This document shows, one piece after another, positions 3,971-56,649 of a stretch of DNA of 64,000 nucleotides. Position numbers and translations under genes: made by a program. A model generated the notes under the pieces. That model was not told the DNA's origin. It made no database searches and was given only the letters and a program-made list of their open reading frames with translations. This DNA comes from Jaminaea rosea (Eukaryota > Basidiomycota > Exobasidiomycetes > Microstromatales): NCBI RefSeq assembly GCF_003144245.1, contig NW_020289988.1, forward strand, positions 434,001 through 498,000, given 5' to 3'. Within the stretch, counting starts at the first letter, position 1, and the number at the start of each line of letters is the position of its first letter.

Positions 3971-6900
3971 ATGGCTCCCATTGCGACTGGCCAATACTCT
4001 GAGGCGTCGTCCTCGTCATCACCATCACCCTCAGCCTCGCCAAAGAAGCGATGCGTCGTAGTTGGCTTTGGCATGGTGGGTGTCAGCTTCGTCGAGAAGC
4101 TGCTCAAGTACGATCTTGAAGGGCAGCGCGATCAATGGGAGGTTACAGTGTGAGTGTCGTACGACCCCCAGAAGAACGACCGCTCTTCGATCATCGTTCG
4201 CTCACACCGCTTGCGCAACAGTATCGGCGAAGAGCCTCACATCGCCTACAACCGAGTTGGACTCACCACCTATTTTGAACAGCGCAATGTCGAAGCACTC
4301 TACCTGAACCCTCTCGAATGGTACTCATCACACACGCCCGGCAAGCTTGCATATCACACCTCGGACCCCGTCGTCTCCATCCTCTCTGACAAGAAGGAAG
4401 TCCTGACCGCCAAGGGCCTTACTATACCGTACGACGTCTGCGTGCTCGCCACTGGCAGTGATGCAGCGCTACCTCCCTACGTCACGAAAGACCGCTTCCA
4501 CCGCACGCAAGGCGCATTCGTCTACCGCAATCTTGCCGACCTCGATGCCATGATCAGCTACTCCGAGAAGAAGAAGATCAAGAGAGCGGCTGTAGTCGGG
4601 GGTGGTCTTCTGGGTCTGGAAGCGGCACACGCGCTCTTGAACCTCGAGACCGTTGACCAAGCAGTCATCGTCGAGCGCAACAACTGGTGTCTGTCCCGTC
4701 AGCTCGACGCAGAGGGCGGTACCCTCGTGCTCGAGAAGGTCAAGGCACTTGGTGTTGAGGTGCTCCTCCGAGCTCGCGTCAAAGATCTCATCACTACCGC
4801 CAAGGAAGACGGCAGCGACGTGCTCACGGGCATTGCTCTTGAGAGTGGAGAGCCGTACGACCTCGACATGATCGTCTTTGCAGTCGGTATCAAGCCGCGG
4901 GATGAGCTTTCCAAATCGACTGGCCTGGAGGTGTCGCCTCGAGGAGGCTTCACCGTCACAGATCATCTTCAAACCAATCTCCCTGACGTCTACGCCATCG
5001 GGGAGGCTGCAAGCTACAAGGGCGAGACGTATGGTCTCATCGCTCCCGGCGTCGAGATGGCCGACGTCCTCGCCTTCAACCTTACGGAGGGCCCTCATCA
5101 CGCCCTGCGATCCATGACCCCGCCGGACCTGTCCACCAAGCTGAAGCTGATGGGTGTCGACGTCGCCTCGTTTGGCGACTTCTTTGCGGATCAGGGCAAA
5201 ATCACGCGACCACTTCCCAAGGAGAGAGGCACGAAGCGCGACGAGTCGACACCGCCCAAGGTCAAGGCCCTCACGTACCGAGACCCCTTTTCAGACCACT
5301 ACAAGAAGTACATCTTCACCGAGGACGGCAAGTACCTCCTCGGCGGCATGATGGTCGGCGACTGCAAAGACTACGTCAAGCTGGTCAGCATTTGCAACAA
5401 GCAGAAGGCCCTCGAGATCCCTCCATCGCAGCTCATCCTCGGCGCCAAGAAGGAAGGCGAGGAAGAGGGAGACGATCTCGATGATGATGCGCAAGTGTGC
5501 TCGTGCCATAACACCAGCAAGGGCGACATCGTCAAGAAGGTCAAGGACGGCTGCCGTGCCTTTGGCGAGATTAAGAGCACGACGAAGTGTGGCACAGGCT
5601 GTGGTGGATGCGTGCCCCTTGCTACTTCCATCTTCAACAAGGCAATGAAGGATGCAGGAGCAGAGGTGTCCAACGCTCTCTGCCCTCACTTTAAGCAGTC
5701 TCGCCCTGACCTCTACACGATTGTCAAGTTCAAGAAGCTCAAGACCTTCCGCGACGTCATGGAGTCGGTGGGCAAGAAGCCGGACAGCCTAGGCTGCGAG
5801 GTGTGCCGACCGGCCGTCGGGTCTATTCTCTCGCTGCTGTACAACGAGTGGATCATGGCGCCGCAACTCCGTCAGACGCAAGATACCAACGATCGTTTCA
5901 TGGCCAATTTGCAGCGCGACGGGTCGTACTCGGTCGTGCCTCGCCTCGTAGCGGGAGAGGTGACGCCGTATCAGCTCAAGGTGCTTGGAGAAGTCGCCGA
6001 AGATTTCTCGCTCTACTCAAAGATCACGGGAGGGCAGAGGATCGACCTTTTCGGAGCGAAGAAGCAAGACCTTCCCGCTATTTGGGAGAGGTTGGTCGCA
6101 GCAGGGTTCCAGACTGGCCAAGCATACGGCAAGTCCCTCCGTACCGTCAAGAGCTGCGTCGGCTCAACGTGGTGCCGTTTCGGTGTGGGCGATTCGGTAG
6201 GACTAGCCGTCGAGCTCGAGCAGCGCTACAAGGGCATCCGCGCCCCGCATAAGTTCAAAGGCGGTATGTCGGGATGCGTACGAGAGTGCGCCGAAGCTCA
6301 GAGCAAGGACTTCGGTGTCATCGCAACGCCCAAGGGCTGGAATGTCTACGTCGGCGGCAATGGCGGTGCCAAGCCTCGACACGCGGACCTCCTCGCCGAA
6401 GACGTGCCCAAAGCCATGGCCGTCAAGCTCATCGACCGCTTCCTCATCCTCTACGCGCGTTCGGCCGACAAGCTCATGCGAACAGCACGCTGGATCGAGG
6501 CCTACCCGGGCGGCATCAAGGAGCTGCGCGAGGTCATTGTCAAGGACAAGCTGGGCATCTGTAAGGAGCTCGAGGACGAGATGGATGAGCTGGTTGGCAC
6601 CTTCCATTGCGAGTGGACGGAGACGGTCAAGAATCCGGAGAGGCGCAAGGTCTTCCGCCAATTCGTCAACACCGAGGAGACTCAAGAGGTGTCTGAGAAG
6701 ATCGTTCAGCGTTCTCAGCGTCGTCCTGCCGACTGGCCGGAGTCTGCTCCACCGCTCAAATTCGACGTCAATGACATTGTGCAAACGGCGACGTGGGAAT
6801 GGCGCAAGGTGTGCAAGTACGCCGACCTCGACCCGTCGCAAGATGCCACATCGTCAGCCGTCGTCAAATACGGCGACACGCAGATTGCCATCTTTTCAAT

Positions 6901-7381
6901 TCCTGGTCGAGGGCTCAGGGCATCGCAGAACATGTGCCCGCATAGGCGCGCTTTCGTCCTTGCCGACGGTCTGATTGGCGAGGACTCTCAGGGGCGGGAC
7001 TACATCTCTTGCCCGTTGCACAAGCGCAACTACACGCTTTCGCACAAAGTCGAAGAGGACGGTGGGCACTGTAATGACCCAGACTACCAGATTATGACAT
7101 TCGAGGCCAAGGTGGATGAGGAAGGGGACGTGGTACTGCGACTGCCCGACAGCGATTCGCTCGACGCTGTTCTCTCGACGACAAAGTGGATGTTGCGCAA
7201 GGCCAAGGAAGAGTCGGACATTCTGGCTCAGGATGCCAAGGGCTCATCAATCGAGATCGAAGGGCCGAGCAAGGTGGTAGAGAAGGAGGCTCAAAACGCC
7301 CAGCGGGCGAGGCGTGGGCTGGCCGAGGTGAGCGAGAAGCAGCAGAAGGCATCGTGCGGAGAGACTTCGTTGGATTGGTAA
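3971..7381 (+). CDS. nir1: Assimilatory nitrite reductase [NAD(P)H]
   Basis: Two exons (3971-4149 and 4222-7381; intron GTGAGT...CAG) give 1112 aa. The enzyme reduces nitrite to ammonium in the cytosol using NAD(P)H, FAD, an iron-sulfur cluster and siroheme. Domains in order are: an FAD/NAD(P) disulfide-reductase fold (about 30-370) with a GFGMVG dinucleotide motif; a BFD-like [2Fe-2S] domain (CSCHNT near 485, CGTGCGGC near 516); ferredoxin-like halves; the siroheme/4Fe-4S site with CVGSTWC near 704 and CVREC near 745; and a C-terminal Rieske-type domain (CPHRR near 963, CPLHKR near 989), as is usual for fungal nitrite reductases. Splicing restores VTVIGEEPHIAYNR across the junction, which supports the intron. 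It lies in tandem 606 bp upstream of nitrate reductase. Confidence 0.96.
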
Positions 7382-30823: not shown

Positions 30824-32538
30824 TCAGAGCTCGTCGTGCTGCGCGGGTGCATTTTGCTCGGGCGAGTTCTGCTCGGCCTCGATCACTTCCTCGACGATCT
30901 CCGGCTCCTCTTCGACGAATACGACCTCCTCTACTACTTCCTCCACCACCGCGTCATCGTCATCGTCGTCGTCACCGTACTGCTGCTGCATTCCCGCCGG
31001 CGTTTCCGCAGAGAAAAAGGAGCTGACCACCTCGTCGACCGCTTGGGTTAATGGCTGCGCCGTCTCCCCGGCCGCTGCGGCTGCCGATCCGGCTGCGACT
31101 GCCGCTTCGGCCGCTGACGATGCGCGGGCTGCCGCTTCCATAGATGAGGAGGACGACGACGAGTATTGGGCTGCTTCGACGGATGAGAGACGAGCTGCTT
31201 CCTCGACGGACGAGACTCGAGCCGCTTCCGCAATCGAAGATGCGCGAGCGACCTCCTCCATTGACGATACTCGCGCTGCCTCCTGCATCGACGAGACGCG
31301 GGCTGCTTCTGCGGCAGAGGACTGCGCTGCCTCCTCGCTGGCTCTGCTGGCTGCTGCGGAGAGGGAGGATGATGACGACGAGGAGGAGGAGCTTGCCGCG
31401 GCCGCCGCCGCTACCGCCGCCGCAGATTGAGCTGCCGCTGCAGCCACCTCGCTCGCCTTGCTCTTTGCCGCCTCTGCCAGACTGGCTGACACGACGCTGC
31501 TGCTACTACTCTTGCTAGCCGCAGCGGCGGCGGCCACCGCCTTCGCTGACTCCTTTGCAGCAGCCTGCGCCGCCCCTTTGGGCCCTAAGATGCCCACCCC
31601 TCTGAACAAGAGGGCCACGACGGCCATACCGCGATCCCAGATCCTGACCTTGAGTACGTAGCCCACACAGGCAAAGAAGAAGAGGTAGGCCGCCATTAAC
31701 ATGAGGAAGTCCCATCTATCCCTGCTCTTCATGCCTTTCAATATCTTGCCCGAGTTGGTCATCAGCAGCTGGAAGGAGGCGTAGTCCATTCCTAGCTCTG
31801 CGAGGGATTGGGAGCTTTCGTCTAGGAGGGTGAGGGAGTGGGAGGATTGGACTAGGGAGTGGGAGAGGGTTTGTAGCGTGGATTGGAGCGAGGAGGTGAG
31901 CTGAGAGCTGTGTTGCGCAGCAGAGGTGCTGTCGGGGTCGTTTGAGGTTGGTTTCGCGTTGCGAGATGCGGGTTGGAGACCACCGTTGATTGGCTTGTAC
32001 GAGGGAGGAGGAGCGGATGAGTCGGAGCGTGGGACTTCTTCCGCTGGAGGTGGGCGTCGTTTCGTCTTGTTCTCGGCCAGGCCTCGACGAGCGGAGAGGA
32101 GGGCTTGTCGAGCAGAAGAGCGGACGCTGGCGGCGATGCGAAAGGAGACACGCTCTGATGAGCATACGCTTTGTGCTCTCGCGCAGTCGAGCTAACTCAC
32201 CTAGCATACTGCGCCTTTACCCTCGCCCACTCGACCTCAAGGACCTCATCGCTCCCACCCCTCTCGTCGCGCACCTCATCCAAGATAGCATCGCCTTCCC
32301 TCAGAAAGCGCTTGCAATCATCCAGAGCATCGTTGAGTTCTTGCTCGTAGCCGGCAAAGGCGGCCTGAGCTTGCTGGGCGGAGGCTGGGGACGAAGAAGA
32401 GGATGAGGCGAGGCGAGGGAGTTGGAAGGACTGGACGTCTCGCAGGCGGAGGGTAAGGGGTGTGATGAGGGCGCTGAGCTCGGGAGGGAAGCGTGAAGAT
32501 TGTGTTGGCTGCGTTGACGCTGTTGCCGTAGCCATCAT
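30824..32538 (-). CDS. SEC20: Sec20-type SNARE of Golgi-to-ER retrograde transport, with HDEL tail
   Basis: Two exons (32538-32201 and 32126-30824) encode 546 aa. The N-terminal cytosolic region is helical. A Sec20/BNIP1-type SNARE region (LTLLDESSQSLAELGMDYAS to LLMTNSGKILKGMKSRDRWD) leads into one membrane anchor (FLMLMAAYLFFFACVGYVLKV). The roughly 250-residue lumenal part is Ala/Ser-rich with a nine-residue repeat, then an acidic region, and ends HDEL, the ER retrieval signal also carried by yeast Sec20. Sec20 works with Use1, Ufe1 and Sec22 and the Dsl1 tether to receive COPI vesicles at the ER. The start could be either of two adjacent ATGs (32538, 32535). It is divergent from the GET1 fusion gene, 195 bp away. 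Confidence 0.93.
31175..31310 (-). repeat. 27-bp coding minisatellite in SEC20 (nine-residue repeat)
   Basis: About five successive units of nine residues are visible in the lumenal domain: AARVSSMQE, AARVSSMEE, VARASSIAE, AARVSSVEE and AARLSSVEA. Boundaries are approximate. Confidence 0.8.
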
Positions 32539-32733
32539 TGGGAGGCAGCTGGTGTTGGTTGCGAAAGAAAGAAAGAAAGCAGGCGCGATTCGAGGCACGC
32601 ACGCATCGGCCCTCGACTTGCTGCGACGTGGAGGCGAGACGCGGACCGCGGGCGGGGCTGGCGATGATTGCCTTTGATCACTTCTTCCTTCGCCATCAAT
32701 TCATCCCATCCAACGACTTCGCGCCCGCCAACA

Positions 32734-34503
32734 ATGGACGCAGTAGTGGACGAGGTCATAGCGGAGAGTGCCGATCAAAGCTTCGAGAAGGCTGCCTCGA
32801 CGATCGGCCACCTCACCTTGCCCAGCACAACCCTCTGGCTTCACCCGGCCATCGTCATCCTCCTTACTGCCTCCCTTTCGCACACCCTCAAGTCCATCGG
32901 GAGTGAGGCGATTCTCACCTTTCTCGTCCAGCCCACCCATTCTTTCCTCTTTCAGCGAGGACTCGCTCGCAAGCAAAGCGTATTGAAGCGTGACCTCTTT
33001 GAGACGCGCCAACAATTAGGAAAGACGAGCAGCCAAGACGAGTTTGCCAAATGGGCCAAACTGCGTCGTAAAGTGGACAAAACGCTGGCCGAACTGGAGG
33101 GGGTCAACAAATCCCTTTCCTCGTCTCGATCCACGCTGAGCATGATTGTCAAGGCGCTTCTGTTCATCGTGACTACCTTGGCGCCCTTTGCGGTGACAAC
33201 GTATTATAGGAAGACGCCCATCTTCTGGCTTCCTCCGGGAGCGGCTATTCCACCAATGGCGCTCATTCGTGGGGGCAAGAAGGCCGGTGGGACGGCTGCG
33301 GCTAATTGGCTGGGTCCGATGGGATGGGTGCTTAGCTTGCCGAGCGCACCGGCCGGTACGTAGCGGCGAGGGTCGCAAACATCGTCCCTCCACGCTCTGA
33401 CCCTTCTTCTCCTTTCCTCCTTCGTCATCGCAGGCGCCGTCTCCGCCACAGTCTGGAATATGGTCTGTGGCCGCATCCTCGGCATGCTCACCTCCCTCCT
33501 CAAGGACATGGTCCTCCTCGCACTCGCCCTCGTCTCACCAGTCGACGATTCTAAGCTAAAGCCAATCAGCTCCGCCTCCTCCTCGGCCCGCACCCTCTGC
33601 TACTCCATCGGCCTCGCCTCATGCAGCTTCGCCTTCTCACAGTTCGCCCAACTAGAGATCCTAGCAGGGATAGACCTAAGCTCGCAGTTTGGAGGTCACT
33701 ACCAGTTCCTCACCAACCTCAGCCTCGCATTCACTTTCGCCACATTGCTCGCCTCACTCGCCCACACCCTCTCCCCCTCCGTGCGACCCCTGCGAGTCGT
33801 GAAGCGCCTCCTCGCAACCTTTACCCTCCCCGCAGAGCTAATGGTCTCCCTCCTCTACTGGACCGTCCTAGCGATCAACCCCTCTCTCCTCATTCCCGAA
33901 CGAGAAGTAGCCGACCCGCTCAACCCAGGTCAATTCGTCATGGAACCCGTTCGCCTACCCTGGGTAGTAGACCTAACCATGCACGCCTTCCCCGCCATCT
34001 TCCTCGTAGTGGATTTCCTCTTCTTCTCCCCACCTCTACCCCTCTCGGTGCGGAGGCTCACGACGAGCTGGCCAACGTACAGTGCAGGGTTGGCCGTATT
34101 CGCCTATTGGGGGTGGGAGAGCCTCTGCGCCTCCAAGAATGGGCATTACCCCTACCCCTTGTTGGGATTGATGAGTACGACGCAACGGGCCCTGTTCCAC
34201 GTAGCGTGCGTCTTTGTTACGGTGGCCGTCTTGTTGGGGATCAATGCTGTGCATGGGGTCATGGATAGGAAGGTCTTGGGCAGGCGATGGACGTGGGGGA
34301 GTGAGGAGGCAGTGCAGGCTGAAGCGAGGGTGAAGGCCGAGAAGAAGGGACAGAGCGAGAAGCGGGAGAAGGAAGGTATGGAAGAGCCCGTCGCGCAGTC
34401 GATCAAGACGTCAGCTGTACCGGCTGCGTCGGAGGGAGAGCAGCTGCGGCAACGCCCCGTCGGTACAGGTGCGACGTCAGGGAAGGAACACGATGAGCTG
34501 TAG
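32734..34503 (+). CDS. GET1: Get1 fused in frame to a FAR-17a/AIG1-like membrane hydrolase domain, ending in HDEL
   Basis: Two exons (32734-33355 and 33434-34503; intron GTACGT...GCAG, 78 bp) give 563 aa. Residues 1 to about 225 are a complete Get1/WRB: lumenal N-terminus, first helix, a cytosolic coiled coil with the family core SSQDEFAKWAKLRRKVDK, a second helix, then GPMGWVLSLPSAPAGAVSA leading into the third. The splice lies inside this last motif, so the intron must be removed to finish Get1. The frame then continues without a stop into a six-helix FAR-17a/AIG1 domain (about 245-495). This keeps Thr301 in QFLTN and His391 in DLTMHAFP, equivalent to the Thr/His pair of human AIG1/ADTRP, which hydrolyse fatty-acid esters of hydroxy fatty acids. 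The charged tail ends KEHDEL. Get1 with Get2 is the ER receptor for Get3 carrying tail-anchored proteins. Confidence 0.88.
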
Positions 34504-34662: not shown

Positions 34663-35969
34663 TCATCCCTTGACCTGAGCCGCACACCAAATAGTCCCAC
34701 ATCCCAGCACGAAGACCAGCACGGCGACATCGTCTACGCACGTGCCGAGGAGGGTAAGCCAACGCTTTCCCGTCACGACGACGAAGCGGAGTGTGGGTGG
34801 GAGGAAGTTGAGCAACATTGAGAGTGGGGATCCGTCCATTGCTTGCTGGCCGTGTGGGGAGGTAGAGCCGGCGAAGGGCGAGGGGAGAAGGAGAAATCGC
34901 AGGGATTGGAGGAAAAGCTCGAGGAGGAGGAAGAGGAGGAAGAGGGGCTGTTTGTGTGCCGTGTGAGGAGGAGAAGTCAAGGTCAGTCAAAGTGACGGGA
35001 GAGGGAGGGAAGATTGCCAGCGGGGCTCGCACAACTCACTACCGGCCCTTCCAATCCTACCCTCGCGCCATCGATATCGAAATGTCTTGCCTGCACCCCT
35101 CCCCCACCAGTAGCCGTCGCGCTAGCCACTGTGTTTGGTCGATAATACGCCAAGCTGGCCCAGCTGTTCAACCTCTGCCTGCTCTCCACCTCGCGCATCG
35201 CCACGTCCATATGCTGCTGAGCGGTGGGAACGCCAAGCAGGGCAGTGGAGACGGCAAAGTACCCCAAGGCGAGGAAGACGACTGTGTGCAAGAGGGAGAA
35301 GAAGCGCGTGGAAAGCCAAGAAGTAGGGGCAGGTTGGCGTTGTTGCATGAAGGGGGGAAGAGGAGGCATCCCATCGGCGCTTGCTTGACCAGGTTGGCCT
35401 TGTTGTTGTTGTTGTTGCTGCATAGCCGCAAAGAGCTGGGAAAGGTCGGGCATCCCACCCATTCCTGCTTCGCCTCCTGATGCACCCGATCCGGCGCCGC
35501 CGCCAGTCAAAGCAGCCATCATCTGAGCAAAGGGATCCTGGGGCATCGGTTGTCCTCCCTGACCCTGTCCCGCCGCGCTCTGCTGCTGCTGCTGTCGCTG
35601 CCAAGCCTGCATGGCTCCCTCCATCTGTTGATCCATCCTCGCCTGATCACTTATATCGATCTCCTCCGGATCGTCCTCATCCCCTCGCCCTCCCGCCTTC
35701 CTAGCCTGAGATGGAGCCCCACCCACAGCCGGCGGTGGGGTAGAAGGATAAAGCAGTTCTGCCTCATCCCCCCGAGCCTGTTTGGTCAGCTTGGCCAAGC
35801 GATCCGTACCTTTCCCCAAGATGCGGGCTTTGCGCGCTTCGCGACGGGCGGCTGCATCGCTTGGTGTGCCCGAGGTCGGGGTGGAGGGTGAGGAGGAGGA
35901 GGAGGTGATGGGAGGCGTTGAGGCTGTGCCACCGCCGCTTGTGCTGGCGTCGAGGGAGGAGGAAGACAT
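34663..35969 (-). CDS. GET2: Get2-type subunit of the tail-anchored protein insertase
   Basis: Two exons (35969-35040 and 34947-34663; intron 34948-35039) encode 404 aa. The N-terminus has a Ser/Thr-rich leader followed by the basic segment AARREARKARILGKGTDRLA, the Arg/Lys-rich Get3-binding motif of Get2. A long acidic, Gln- and Gly-rich linker follows. Three hydrophobic segments come next: WLSTRFFSLLHTVVFLALGY; PLFLLFLLLELFLQSLRFLL (second exon); and VAVLVFVLGCGTIWCAA near the C-terminus. This is the Get2/CAML plan: flexible cytosolic arm, then three helices. The second exon is needed for helices two and three. The gene is convergent with the GET1 fusion (159 bp between stops). Get2 sequences diverge strongly, so the call rests on the motif, topology and neighbour. 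Confidence 0.86.
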
Positions 35970-46867: not shown

Positions 46868-49084
46868 ATGCAATGGACCTCGTCAACCTCACGCCAAGGC
46901 AGCGCCAACTCTACTCCACGCCTCACACCAGCAGTCTCGGCGATTCATAGCGCCCTCGCCTCCCCCACAGCCCCACTCAGTCGCGCCGCTTCGCCCGGTC
47001 TTCTCCGTCTGCCCAATGCCAGCCAGAAGACGCCCGTCGTCGAGGTTGAAGATGATGCCTTCGCTGCTGCAACCGCCGCGGAGGATCTGCCTGGCTCTAC
47101 CCCGGATATGAGCCAAGATGATGCGGGGAGCTTCCAGGCTCGACTGGCTGCGAGCTCCCCGGCTCCTCCGCTGCAGCCTACGTCTACTGCACCAGAGGCT
47201 GCGTCGAGCTCGTCATTCCCCGGCGGGAGCCTATCGCATCGACTCGGTGAGACGCTCGTCATCAGTGGCGGCTCAGGTTACAACGACCTGCTAGGCGCAA
47301 CACCCGGTAACACGACGTATGTCCTACCCATCTCGGACAATGTGAGTGCGAGAGGAGGTGCCAAGGACACCCCCGCAACGCCCCTGCTGATCCTCGCGAC
47401 CTCGACGCTGGCAGGGCGGCTCCTCATCGGAAATCATCCGCACCCTCTCCGGCCCCTCGATTGGAGACATTCGCTCCCGTCTGGTCCGCCTGATCCCCCT
47501 CACCACCTCACCTCGCCTGCCCGGTCGACCTGTGCCCCCAGCGTCCAACGACGCCCTCCACGCTCTCCTCTCCTACCGCCTCCCCACCACCGGCCGCACC
47601 CGCGACATCAAAGCGGAATGGCTTGACATCCTCGAAGGGCGTCATCGCCTATGGCGGGGAATAGAAGCGGACCGCAAGGAGGTAGTACGCGGGATGCTCG
47701 TCCACTTGTCGTCGGAAATCCTCCGTCGCGCACATCGCAACTTCAACCTTCGCGGGCTGAGCATCGGCAATGCCTTCCTCTCTGCGGCGCAAAAATTCTT
47801 TCGCTCAATACAGTCGGCCATCTTCCTCTTTTCGGCAACGACCCTCGTGGCGGGCAGCGGGAGCAGTGTGCTCCCTTGCATCAATACGAATCATACGGCT
47901 ACGATTGCGGCCGAGTTGGAGGATGGGAGTACCATAGTTGGGCAGTGTGAGATTTCTCATCCAGCGAGGCCGGCGCGCCAGGGACCAGCAGCAGCGCAAG
48001 GGGACAAGACGATGTCCCCTTGGACACTGACCGTTCCCCCCTCGGGACTGGAGACGCCTTCGTCGGTCATATTCGATCCCCTCGCCAACCTAGGCTCGGA
48101 CTTGGGAGCGGCACTCTCTCGCTCACGCGTGGATCAGGGGCACCGTTGGCAGGAAGATCGCGTTGGTGCGGGGAGGAAGACGGTGGGCACGCTGCAAGAC
48201 GGGCTGGAGCCGGATGACGATGATGCTGCGAGTGAGGCGGGCAATGATGGTGGCGAGGAGGACGACGATCAAGACTCGGAGGGAGAGACGAGTGCGGCTA
48301 CGGGCGGAAACATCGTGTTTTCCAAGGACAAGGGAGAGGAGGTTCCGCTGCCCAGTCGTATCAAAAGTGCGTTGCGCAGCGCATGACGTCTCCCTCGATG
48401 CTGACCTTGTTCTCCCCCACCCGCACGCCGCACGCCGCGCGCCTAGATCTAGTCTACATCAACTCCTACCGCAACGTCGTCTGGCCCGCCCCGAACATGT
48501 CCTACCTCTCCTCGCTCTCGCGCTGTCGAACGCTCATCTACTCTTGCGGCTCCCTCTACACCTCTCTCATCCCCTCGCTGGCGTTACGCGGCGTGGCCAC
48601 ATCCATCGCTCACTCCCCCTCGCTGCGCTACAAGATCTTGCTGCTCAACACGACGAACGATCGGGAGACGCCTGGGTATACTGCGCTGGATTTCGTGCGG
48701 GCGATTGGGCATGCGCTGAATATGAGCGATCGGCCGCACGAGGAGGAGGGGCAGGAGGAAGGGTATAAGTCGCGTGATTTTATTACCCACATCGTCTACT
48801 ATCCACGAGGGGAGGTCGTGCTGGACCGGGACAAGGTGGAAGCCATGGGAATCGAGTGCGTGGCGGTGGGCGGGCACGCGAAGACAGCGCCAGCCAAGCC
48901 GCCAAAGTTCACCGAAGAGGACGTGCGATGGGCCCTGGACCGGATCGTACGGGAAGCCCCGCCGCCACCCACCAATGCAGGGAGTCGACGACCGAGCATC
49001 ACAGGCGAGGCGGCCGCCCCTTCACCGTCACCATCATCACCGCGTCATCGGATGGAAGGCTTCACCTACTTGACGCTCAACTAG
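46868..49084 (+). CDS. CofD/YvcK-like family protein (UPF0052)
   Basis: Three exons (46868-47341, 47415-48366, 48447-49084) encode 687 aa. After a Ser/Ala-rich leader the core begins ETLVISGGSGYNDLL and continues VLPISDNGGSSSEIIRTLSG, IGDIRSRLVRLIP, NFNLRGLSIGNAFLSAA and VLPCINTNHTATIAAEL. It resumes in exon 3 with NLVYINSYRNVVWPAPNMSY, YSCGSLYTSLIPSLAL and LLLNTTNDRET. This is the Rossmann-like fold of bacterial YvcK and archaeal CofD (phospholactate transferase). The fungal proteins have no established reaction that I know of. An acidic insertion (PDDDDAASEAGNDGGEEDDD) lies between the halves. Residues that bind nucleotide or F420 precursors in CofD cannot be checked by eye. Its stop overlaps that of the next gene by 8 nt on opposite strands. 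Confidence 0.87.
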
Positions 49085-53974: not shown

Positions 53975-56649
53975 TCAAAGCGCCAGCAGTGCCCACCGCT
54001 GCGCCGCATCGTTATGGTCCTTGATCTCCATCTGTCCAATCTCTCCCTCTATCCCGACATCCTCATCACCGCGCTCGTCCCCTCCCAGATCAGCATAGTA
54101 GTGCCAGCTGGAACGCCTGTCGAGCTTGATGGCCGACGTGTACGGGTTGATGACGCGGCCCAGTGCGTGATCGGGCGAGGTGATGTAATTTTCGTGCTCC
54201 CCAGCCGCTGAGACGCCCTTCTCATCCACGTCGGGCGTACCAGCTTCCTCACGCTTCTCGCGCGTAGGCATCGGCTCGAGATGGAACGACGTGTTCAACA
54301 GCTTGGCGATAACGCTCGCGCTACGCGATCTCCTCCTCTTGTGCGTCTCCTCCTTTTGCCTCGCGTAGTACTTCTCCGCCTTCAACGGATCGTACCGACG
54401 TCCAACGGCGCCGAGCTTGCCAAAAGTCTCGCTGGCCACGAGTCCAACGAGGAGGACGGCGTACGCCGTGAGGAAGTGGGTGTTGGGCATCTCCTCGTTG
54501 AGCGGGATGACGGCGAACCCGGCGCTCACAACGAAGCGGAGGGCGATGCGCGCATGGTAGGGCCACTTTGCGCTACCTGCCTTGTCGAGGTTCTTGTGCA
54601 GTAACCCCAGGATGGCAATCACGCCCAGAGAGGTGGCCATGGACCCGCCAAAGAACCATCGAACACCTTCCTTGGAGTGAACCTCGTGGATGAGGCCAGG
54701 TAGGGCAGAGGACATGAGGATGAGGGAGCCCGTGAGGACAAAGTGAGCAAGGTTGAAGCTGATGGCCGTGAATGGGTTGCGACGCAGTGCGTGCACGAAG
54801 CAGCGGGAGCCATCCGCGTCAAAGTAGAGCCAGATGAGGGTGAATCCCACGATGACGGCGAGGACGGATCGCCCGTACTCCTGGCTCAAGCCGAGGGAGT
54901 CGGGTTCCGCCTTGAACGTCGCGTTGAGGATAGACTCGCCGATGACTAGCAGCGTGAAGAGGAGGGAGCGCTCCATGCTGTGCTCGACGCTCGTGACGGG
55001 AATGAACGTGTCCCCCGAATGGCCGTGACGTTTGGCCCTGCCATGCCAGAACTGCATCGTGTACGAGATGCCGAACCGGAAGAGGATGTCGCAGACTATG
55101 CCGGCGACGAGGAGCCAAAGGAGCATGGCCGGGTCGGCGACAGGGATGGCAGGGATGGGCAAGTAGATGGCTGCGAGGCAGACGGTGGGCACGATGCTCA
55201 GCCACAGGGAACGGCGGAAGCGCGGGAGGGCAATTCCGTAGACGAAGAGGAGGAGGACCTTCAAGAGTTTGGAGGCGAGATTGAAGACGCCTGCTGCGAT
55301 GATAGCCGAGAGATACCCCTCTGCAAACCAGAGGCCCGTTTTGCCTAGAGGTACGGCGAGGAGGGGCAACGACTCGTCGCCGGCGCCGTGAGCGAGGTGA
55401 GGGGAGGATTCGGAGGAGGACTCGGCGAGGGTGAGGAGGGCCATTCCTTCGGGCACGATGCCCTTGTGCTCGCTGATGATTTCGACGGCGGTTGCGTTGG
55501 CTGTGTACCCCTGTGTGGCGGCGGAGGCGGCGGCGAGGGAGATGATGAGGTGCGGTGATGAGAGATGGGGACGTGCGGCGATGAGAGATGGGGAGGTGAA
55601 GCGATGAGAGATGGGGAGGTGCGGCGATGAGAGATGGGAAGGTCAGTCTCAAGCAGCGCTTCCAGATGAGCGCGCGCTACTCACGATGAGGAGAAGCATC
55701 TGGAGGAGCAGGTAGAGGCGACACCACACGTCGTCGAGGCCAGAGGTATTGATGTAGGAGCGCACGTCGAGCGCCACGCTGTATGCTGGGTAGTAAATGA
55801 GTGCGAACTTGAGGAGCTGGAGAGCGCGACCTGACTCGGCTTCACCCAGGCCGTCTGCGAGTTGGTGGATGATGCCCTGCGCGTGCGGCGAGAGAGAGGA
55901 CGTGGTGAGCAACCTCGCAGCTCGCAGCAGACGGCCTGTCATGTCGTGTGGCTGCCACGCTCACTCACCACAAAGCACAAGTCGAAGAAGAGCTCGAACC
56001 GCGAGCTTTCCCTCTCAAATTTTTCGCGATAGATGCGCCCATCGCTGAGGAATTGACGAATCACCGGCCGGCGAAAGAGGTGGCTCAGGCGAATAGGCTG
56101 CTGCTCGTCGTACACTTCAATGAAGGACACGGCCGGTGCCCCATCCTGGCTACCGGGCTTCTTGCGCCTGCCGTGTGCGAGCTGAAAGATCTCCGACTCG
56201 TCGCGCACTTGCTGCTGCTGGCTGTGGTGTTGTGGGTGGTTGTAGGCTTGCGCTGATGAGGCAGATGAGGAGGACGTAGGCTGAAGGGGGGCGGGGGAGG
56301 GTCGCACCACCTCCTCGGGTTCGGCAGTCATCTTCTCCGTGTCTGGAAGCATAGCCTTGCCCACCTTCTCGTCGCTCACGGTGCTGTTGTCAGTATCGCT
56401 TCTCTTGGGGGCGGGTGCGGGCTCGTCCTCGTAGTTGAGGGAGGCGGGTCGAGGCGGGGTCGAGTCGATGGTATCCTCGTGGTGTGCGTGGTTCGCGTGG
56501 GCGTGGTGGACGCGGTATCGTGTCTCGACGAGGGGATAGTCTGGCTCTCGTCGTGCGTGAAAGTTGCCAACGAGGTTCGGGTCCTCGATCAGGGCGCTGT
56601 CCTGGCGACGAGGCGAACGCCCAGGGTCGGCGTTGGTATTGTTGCTCAT
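53975..56649 (-). CDS. Low temperature requirement A (LtrA) family multi-pass membrane protein
   Basis: Three exons (56649-55969, 55876-55685, 55510-53975) encode 802 aa. A disordered N-terminus of about 200 residues precedes the LtrA domain, which opens ESSRFELFFDLCFVGIIHQL and contains numerous helices, for example LIYYPAYSVALDVRSYINT, VLLLFVYGIALPRF and VLAVIVGFTLIWLYFDADGS. LtrA was named from a Listeria gene needed for growth in the cold. Fungal members are widespread but have no settled function. The C-terminal 100 residues are hydrophilic. The second intron (55511-55684) contains a four-copy minisatellite. Confidence 0.88.
55550..55642. repeat. 23-bp minisatellite inside the second LtrA intron
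   Basis: Four imperfect copies of a unit close to GGTGCGGCGATGAGAGATGG plus GGA, arranged head to tail inside the 174-bp intron. Boundaries are approximate. Confidence 0.85.

Follow-up and report, generated by a model that had tools for sequence, protein, structure and literature searches.

A predicted fusion of a Get1 insertase subunit with an AIG1-type domain in a basidiomycete fungus

Get1 proteins cross the membrane with three helices and carry a coiled coil on the cytosolic side, which would place the C-terminus in the cytosol, and the known members of the family end soon after the third helix. The AIG1 and ADTRP proteins are described as separate proteins in the available text of the review in which the residues T43 and H134 of AIG1 and T47 and H131 of ADTRP are reported for FAHFA hydrolysis (PMC8123165); the corresponding part of a second paper gives other histidine numbers, 181 and 149 (PMC8394805). 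Instances of the Far-17a_AIG1 family in fungal genomes have long been known and appear in tabulated form in the accessible part of an earlier survey (PMC1854895). In the window, by which we mean the whole stretch of 64,000 bases (G+C 60.5%) of Jaminaea rosea DNA that was analyzed, these two families meet in a single reading frame. Judged from the sequence, the locus is probably a two-exon nuclear gene that encodes one endoplasmic reticulum (ER) membrane protein with nine predicted helices, consisting of Get1, a linker and a complete AIG1-type domain.

According to the proposed gene model, exon 1 (32734-33355, plus strand) encodes the Get1 N-terminus, the first transmembrane helix (TM1), a predicted cytosolic coiled coil, TM2, a predicted luminal loop and the start of the third-helix region, and exon 2 (33434-34503, plus strand) encodes the remainder of the third-helix region, the linker, the AIG1-type domain and a charged tail, followed by the stop codon. 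The exons are separated by a canonical 78-nt intron (33356-33433, plus strand) with the donor GTACGT, the branch-like site CTCTGAC and the acceptor GCAG. The two underlying open frames span 231 codons (32668-33363) and 379 codons without a stop (33364-34503). Removal of the intron, as proposed in an earlier note on this DNA, indeed restores the motif SLPSAPAG/AVSATVW (the slash marks the splice junction), and the frame then continues from the start Met at 32734 to the TAG at 34501-34503. Translation of the joined exons yields 563 amino acids with a computed mass of 61,206 Da (61.2 kDa), in agreement with the approximately 62 kDa given earlier. A Pfam search with the whole fusion protein (E up to 0.1) retrieved exactly two families, CHD5 and Far-17a_AIG1. 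On this sequence evidence, the N-terminal 240 residues of the fusion are the Get1 (WRB) subunit, and the AIG1-type domain carries the charged tail.

The assignment of the first half is anchored in a strong match to CHD5 (Get1, PF04420; E 7e-40, 136.9 bits against a cut-off of 29.3), which falls into two stretches, the best of them covering residues 41-175. Among sequences in the PDB, those similar to the Get1 part include the Get2-Get1 chain 8odu (E 2.5e-15) and human WRB 6so5 (E 8.7e-8). Hydropathy peaks lie near residues 34-52, 137-155 and 218-240, and the charged stretch between the first two contains 15 K/R; this layout of three helices and a coiled coil agrees with the alignment to 8odu and 6so5, the sides of the loops being predicted. 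The translated coiled coil between TM1 and TM2 (TSSQDEFAKWAKLRRKVDK, encoded on the plus strand in exon 1), which we take to bind Get3, is nearly identical to 8odu in the segment TSSQDEFAKWA. From the name of the chain and the accessible text of PMC10646013, we read 8odu as the Chaetomium thermophilum complex. The third-helix motif aligns with this chain on both sides of the splice junction, LSLPSAPAG/AVSATVW in the fusion corresponding to VSFPNAPMGSVSIVVW in 8odu; removal of the intron is needed to complete this motif, which aligns across the splice with the Chaetomium Get1 sequence PNAPMGSVSIVVW.

The resemblance to Get1/WRB therefore comprises the coiled-coil signature TSSQDEFAKWA(K/R)L, TM2 and the third-helix signature APxGxVSxxVW, and extends to the genomic context, where a GET2 gene adjoins the fusion gene. 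The difference lies at the C-terminus: the fusion runs about 320 residues past the third helix and carries a second domain there, whereas the Chaetomium chain 8odu has 43 residues beyond the last aligned residue, tags perhaps included. A lesser difference is found between the two aligned stretches, which are separated by 26 residues in the fusion as against 5 in 8odu. NCBIfam returned only a sub-threshold match for exon 1 (15.1 bits versus 200). A search of viral contigs with exon 1 retrieved eight stretches at two loci (L001 and L002), each a 33-residue alignment within a long frame that, by our reading, resembles a phage DNA polymerase; we consider these chance matches.

The neighboring genes are packed closely around this locus. 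The convergent GET2 gene (34663-35969, minus strand; Met at 35969) encodes 404 amino acids and contains a predicted intron at 34948-35039 (GTGAGT...ACAG); its Pfam match has an E value of 1.9e-9 for the spliced protein and 4.8e-7 for the main frame. The divergent neighbor, SEC20 (30824-32538, minus strand), has a candidate start Met at 32538 or 32535 and a splice near 32200 whose position is approximate, and the frame 30824-32191 matches the Pfam Sec20 family with E 3.2e-15. The SEC20 protein, as read from its translation, has a membrane helix followed by a long segment rich in Ser and Ala, and ends in QHDEL. About 160 nt lie between the stops of the fusion gene and GET2, and SEC20 and GET1 start about 195 nt apart. 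In our judgement, two insertase subunits side by side with a Golgi-ER SNARE form an unusual grouping. Elsewhere in the window, a protein resembling nitrite reductase, in which Pyr_redox_2, Fer2_BFD, NIR_SIR and Rieske domains are recognized, is encoded at 4154-7381 (plus strand), and an LtrA family protein, of a family named from bacteria, at 53975-55642 (minus strand; E 4.1e-13). CofD is a family of archaeal and bacterial cofactor F420 synthesis; two frames at 47391-49084 (plus strand) match it in Pfam (E 6.5e-12 and 1.3e-8), in a window of eukaryotic type.

The second half of the fusion protein contains a Far-17a/AIG1 domain at residues 263-479 (33598-34248, plus strand), with a Pfam match (PF04750; E 1.2e-27, 97.2 bits against a cut-off of 24.5) that covers positions 5-203 of the 206 in the profile. 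Thr301 (33712-33714, plus strand) and His391 (33982-33984, plus strand) are the counterparts of the reported catalytic Thr43 and His134 of AIG1. That these residues are retained, in the contexts QFLTN and DLTMHAFP and with a spacing of 90, had been noted before and is borne out; all 33 near-full-length bacterial relatives in the alignment also have Thr and His in these two columns. The likeness to AIG1, ADTRP and the bacterial proteins thus consists of a complete domain, a Thr/His pair placed alike 90 residues apart and a PYPxL motif; the difference is that the domain sits here on Get1 and the protein ends in HDEL. The six additional hydrophobic segments claimed in the earlier note are compatible with the family alignment and with the six membrane segments predicted for ADTRP in the accessible text of PMC8123165, but a Kyte-Doolittle scan (19 residues, mean 1.4) flags only four separate regions in the added part, at 299-321, 337-361, 382-413 and 462-480. 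Structure prediction for exon 2 from the single sequence (mean pLDDT 46.7, pTM 0.27) is uninformative either way. NCBIfam gave no match for exon 2, and the nine PDB sequences retrieved at E up to 1 are all named as Get1/WRB or as Get2/CAMLG-Get1 fusions, with no AIG1-type structure among them.

The bacterial relatives were collected by searching bacterial genomes with the PF04750 profile (E up to 0.001), which yielded 53 loci (L120-L172); matches occurred in 0 of 1, 0 of 8, 17 of 299, 9 of 398, 28 of 198 and 28 of 198 records or genomes of the respective samples, the last two of which consist largely of the same genomes. We aligned the 33 loci with near-full profile coverage with the window domain; clustering at 80% identity leaves 32 groups, and their identity to the window domain ranges from 14.9% to 25.8%, with a median of 21.6%. 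A profile built from these 33 bacterial relatives alone scores the fusion protein at 29.2 bits; none of 1,000 shuffled versions of residues 256-490 scores above 7.8. Among the 14 columns that are invariant in the 33 relatives, the window domain retains five, namely Thr301, Leu305, Trp350, His391 and Tyr448, and departs in nine, for example with Ser437 in place of Glu and Gly452 in place of Asn. These nine differences may partly reflect the distance between bacteria and eukaryotes or local misalignment; with so many invariant positions changed, it is also possible that the activity of the AIG1 domain is altered. The remaining 20 loci (L120-L136 and L143-L145), which match mainly the second half of the PF04750 profile, were left out of the alignment count. 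Of their 20 rows, 10 were viewed by eye: all 10 have the His, and each of the 5 that extend far enough to include the Thr region has the Thr. A second bacterial group comprises L120-L136, L143 and L145, the 10 viewed rows keeping the His together with a PYPF motif, and looks from its sequences like a distinct PF04750 subfamily. A search of genome contigs for exon 2 relatives produced 102 stretches that matched a pattern, none of which was confirmed, and no relatives were found in viral contigs.

The linker (residues 241-262, about 22 residues; 33532-33597, plus strand) is predicted to be cytosolic and contains three K/R and two D/E. Counted from the last residue aligned to the Chaetomium Get1 (230) to the start of the AIG1 match (263), only 32 residues (231-262) intervene, too few to accommodate the stop and 3' end of one gene and the promoter and start of another outside coding sequence. 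This presence of both complete domains in one frame, 32 residues apart, is in our view the strongest sequence argument for the fusion. The earlier note had argued from the splice, which is needed to complete Get1, that simple mis-joining of two genes was unlikely; the last exon does belong to Get1, but the splice by itself is no proof of a fusion. Neither is the open linker strong evidence on its own, because 48% of 32-codon off-frame stretches (2,274 stretches) are likewise free of stops.

Codon usage adds to the argument. With nine long frames of the window as the training set for log-odds, the true frame scores above zero (0.13 to 0.41) in all 13 of the 30-codon windows that start at 33436-33796, and in the other frames over 33436-33525 and 33526-33615 nine of ten scores are negative, with one at +0.18. 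A point against the fusion frame is its score of -0.21 over 33801-34200, compared with +0.11 for the next frame, although the Thr/His columns and the Pfam match both lie in the true frame. The better-scoring alternative over that interval is the overlapping frame 33555-34268 (plus strand, 237 codons). It covers the stretch that encodes the AIG1 domain, which is recognized by Pfam and carries its Thr and His in the true frame; we therefore rejected it as a gene of its own and regard it as a by-product of composition.

Two explanations dispense with a genuine fusion protein. The locus could give rise to two products, so that an AIG1-type protein distinct from Get1 results from an internal promoter or from processing and the joined frame is a side product. 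Three methionines upstream of the first AIG1 helix, Met217, Met225 and Met233, are possible starts for such a protein, and retention of the intron would end Get1 at the in-frame TAG 33361-33363, yielding a product that lacks the third helix. A separate complete Get1, however, needs a stop after this helix, yet the first one in the frame is at 34501; a separate AIG1 gene would have to begin at one of the three methionines, all within or at the end of the Get1 third-helix region; an alternative intron in 33434-33640 was looked for and none was seen (0 of 7 GT sites read GTRNGT, and no CTRAY branch-like site was found); and the promoter would have to sit inside the GET1 coding sequence. We consider this explanation improbable. 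Less credible still is an error of sequencing or assembly, in which a lost stop or a small deletion joined two adjacent genes: a single record stands behind the sequence, but such an error would have had to take out a stop together with intergenic DNA and a promoter and yet keep the frame, whereas both domains are complete and share one frame, and codon use across the linker is of coding type. With these points weighed, the fusion gene is very likely real, as far as sequence can tell.

With respect to topology, the end of Get1 and the start of the AIG1 domain would both be cytosolic, so that they could be joined without inverting either half. The charges of the AIG1 loops, with limits set by eye (four and two K/R in the predicted cytosolic loops; zero, two and two in the predicted luminal ones), fit, as expected, an N-in, C-in arrangement in which the domain starts in the cytosol. 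However, charge alone does not decide the topology, because the tail of the fusion protein is neutral (15 K/R, 15 D/E) and, contrary to the positive-inside rule, five K/R and no D/E are found in the Get1 loop that is predicted to be luminal (158-192). If the topology is right, Thr301 and His391 would lie towards the luminal side.

The HDEL at the C-terminus of the fusion protein (34489-34500, plus strand; by translation) sits uneasily with this arrangement. Yeast Sec20 has an HDEL end, and only 2 of the 630 stop-to-stop frames of at least 60 amino acids in the window end in H/K/R-DEL, namely the fusion and SEC20. On a predicted cytosolic tail, the motif would be unreadable by its receptor and would thus misfit the simple topology; either the HDEL of the fusion is due to chance or the topology is different.

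Assuming the simple topology, the Get1 part of the predicted fusion protein would start in the lumen, cross the membrane three times and end in the cytosol, from where the AIG1 domain would begin its six crossings. The Get1 part would form a pair with the product of the adjacent GET2 gene and accept tail-anchored proteins delivered by Get3; in that same piece of membrane, the AIG1 part would use its Thr and His to split a fatty-acid ester. As an origin of the gene, the most economical assumption would be the loss of a stop and an intergenic stretch between two neighboring genes on the same strand. The tight packing of the locus, with gaps of about 160 nt and about 195 nt, eases such a deletion, and this favors the possibility that the fusion is real and functionally neutral, a single chain that arose by chance loss, with halves that work independently and a join that provides shared expression and a shared address only. 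The retention of the whole AIG1 domain with its Thr and His is likewise expected if each half is simply conserved. Nothing speaks directly against neutrality, given that the topological match between the end of Get1 and the start of AIG1 is expected under it as well. We regard neutrality as a serious possibility, if slightly short of an even one; it overlaps with the preferred reading of one fused ER membrane protein, which leaves coupling between the halves open.

Membrane thinning has been reported for the GET insertase in the accessible text of PMC10646013. If the two halves of the fusion co-operate, the likeliest route would be a local change of lipids beside this membrane-thinning insertase. 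Co-operation is, however, something that we only infer, and a neutral fusion is at least as likely. A more elaborate proposal is a bifunctional insertase-hydrolase, in which the AIG1 domain promotes or gates tail-anchored insertion by altering the lipids where the Get1/Get2 groove opens, SEC20, GET1-AIG1 and GET2 are clustered for ER-Golgi traffic, and the HDEL ties the complex to retrieval; we think this rather unlikely.

As for novelty, the earlier statement that no description of such a fusion is known stands within the scope covered: no description of a Get1-AIG1 fusion was found among the matches listed in a search of titles and abstract starts of the openly licensed literature, and a functional study of the Far-17a/AIG1 family in fungi was likewise not found among the matches listed there. 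According to the accessible part of PMC12313070, one of its figures deals with the domain architecture of Get1 from several phytopathogenic fungi, and the terms aig1 and basidiomycet are absent from the main text of that paper. The same architecture may already be present, unremarked, in fungal sequence databases. What is new about the fusion is the combination of two known families; it does not represent a new kind of system.

Proteins whose domains are fused in one organism often turn out to interact as separate partners in others. The gene described here therefore leads to a suggestion that can be tested in yeast and human cells, namely that Get1/WRB may meet AIG1/ADTRP proteins. If the chain is made as predicted, the insertion of tail-anchored proteins would be physically linked with an enzyme family that splits fatty-acid esters. 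Furthermore, should the bifunctional reading prove true, the fusion would be a Rosetta-stone clue that separate Get1 and AIG1 proteins also work together.
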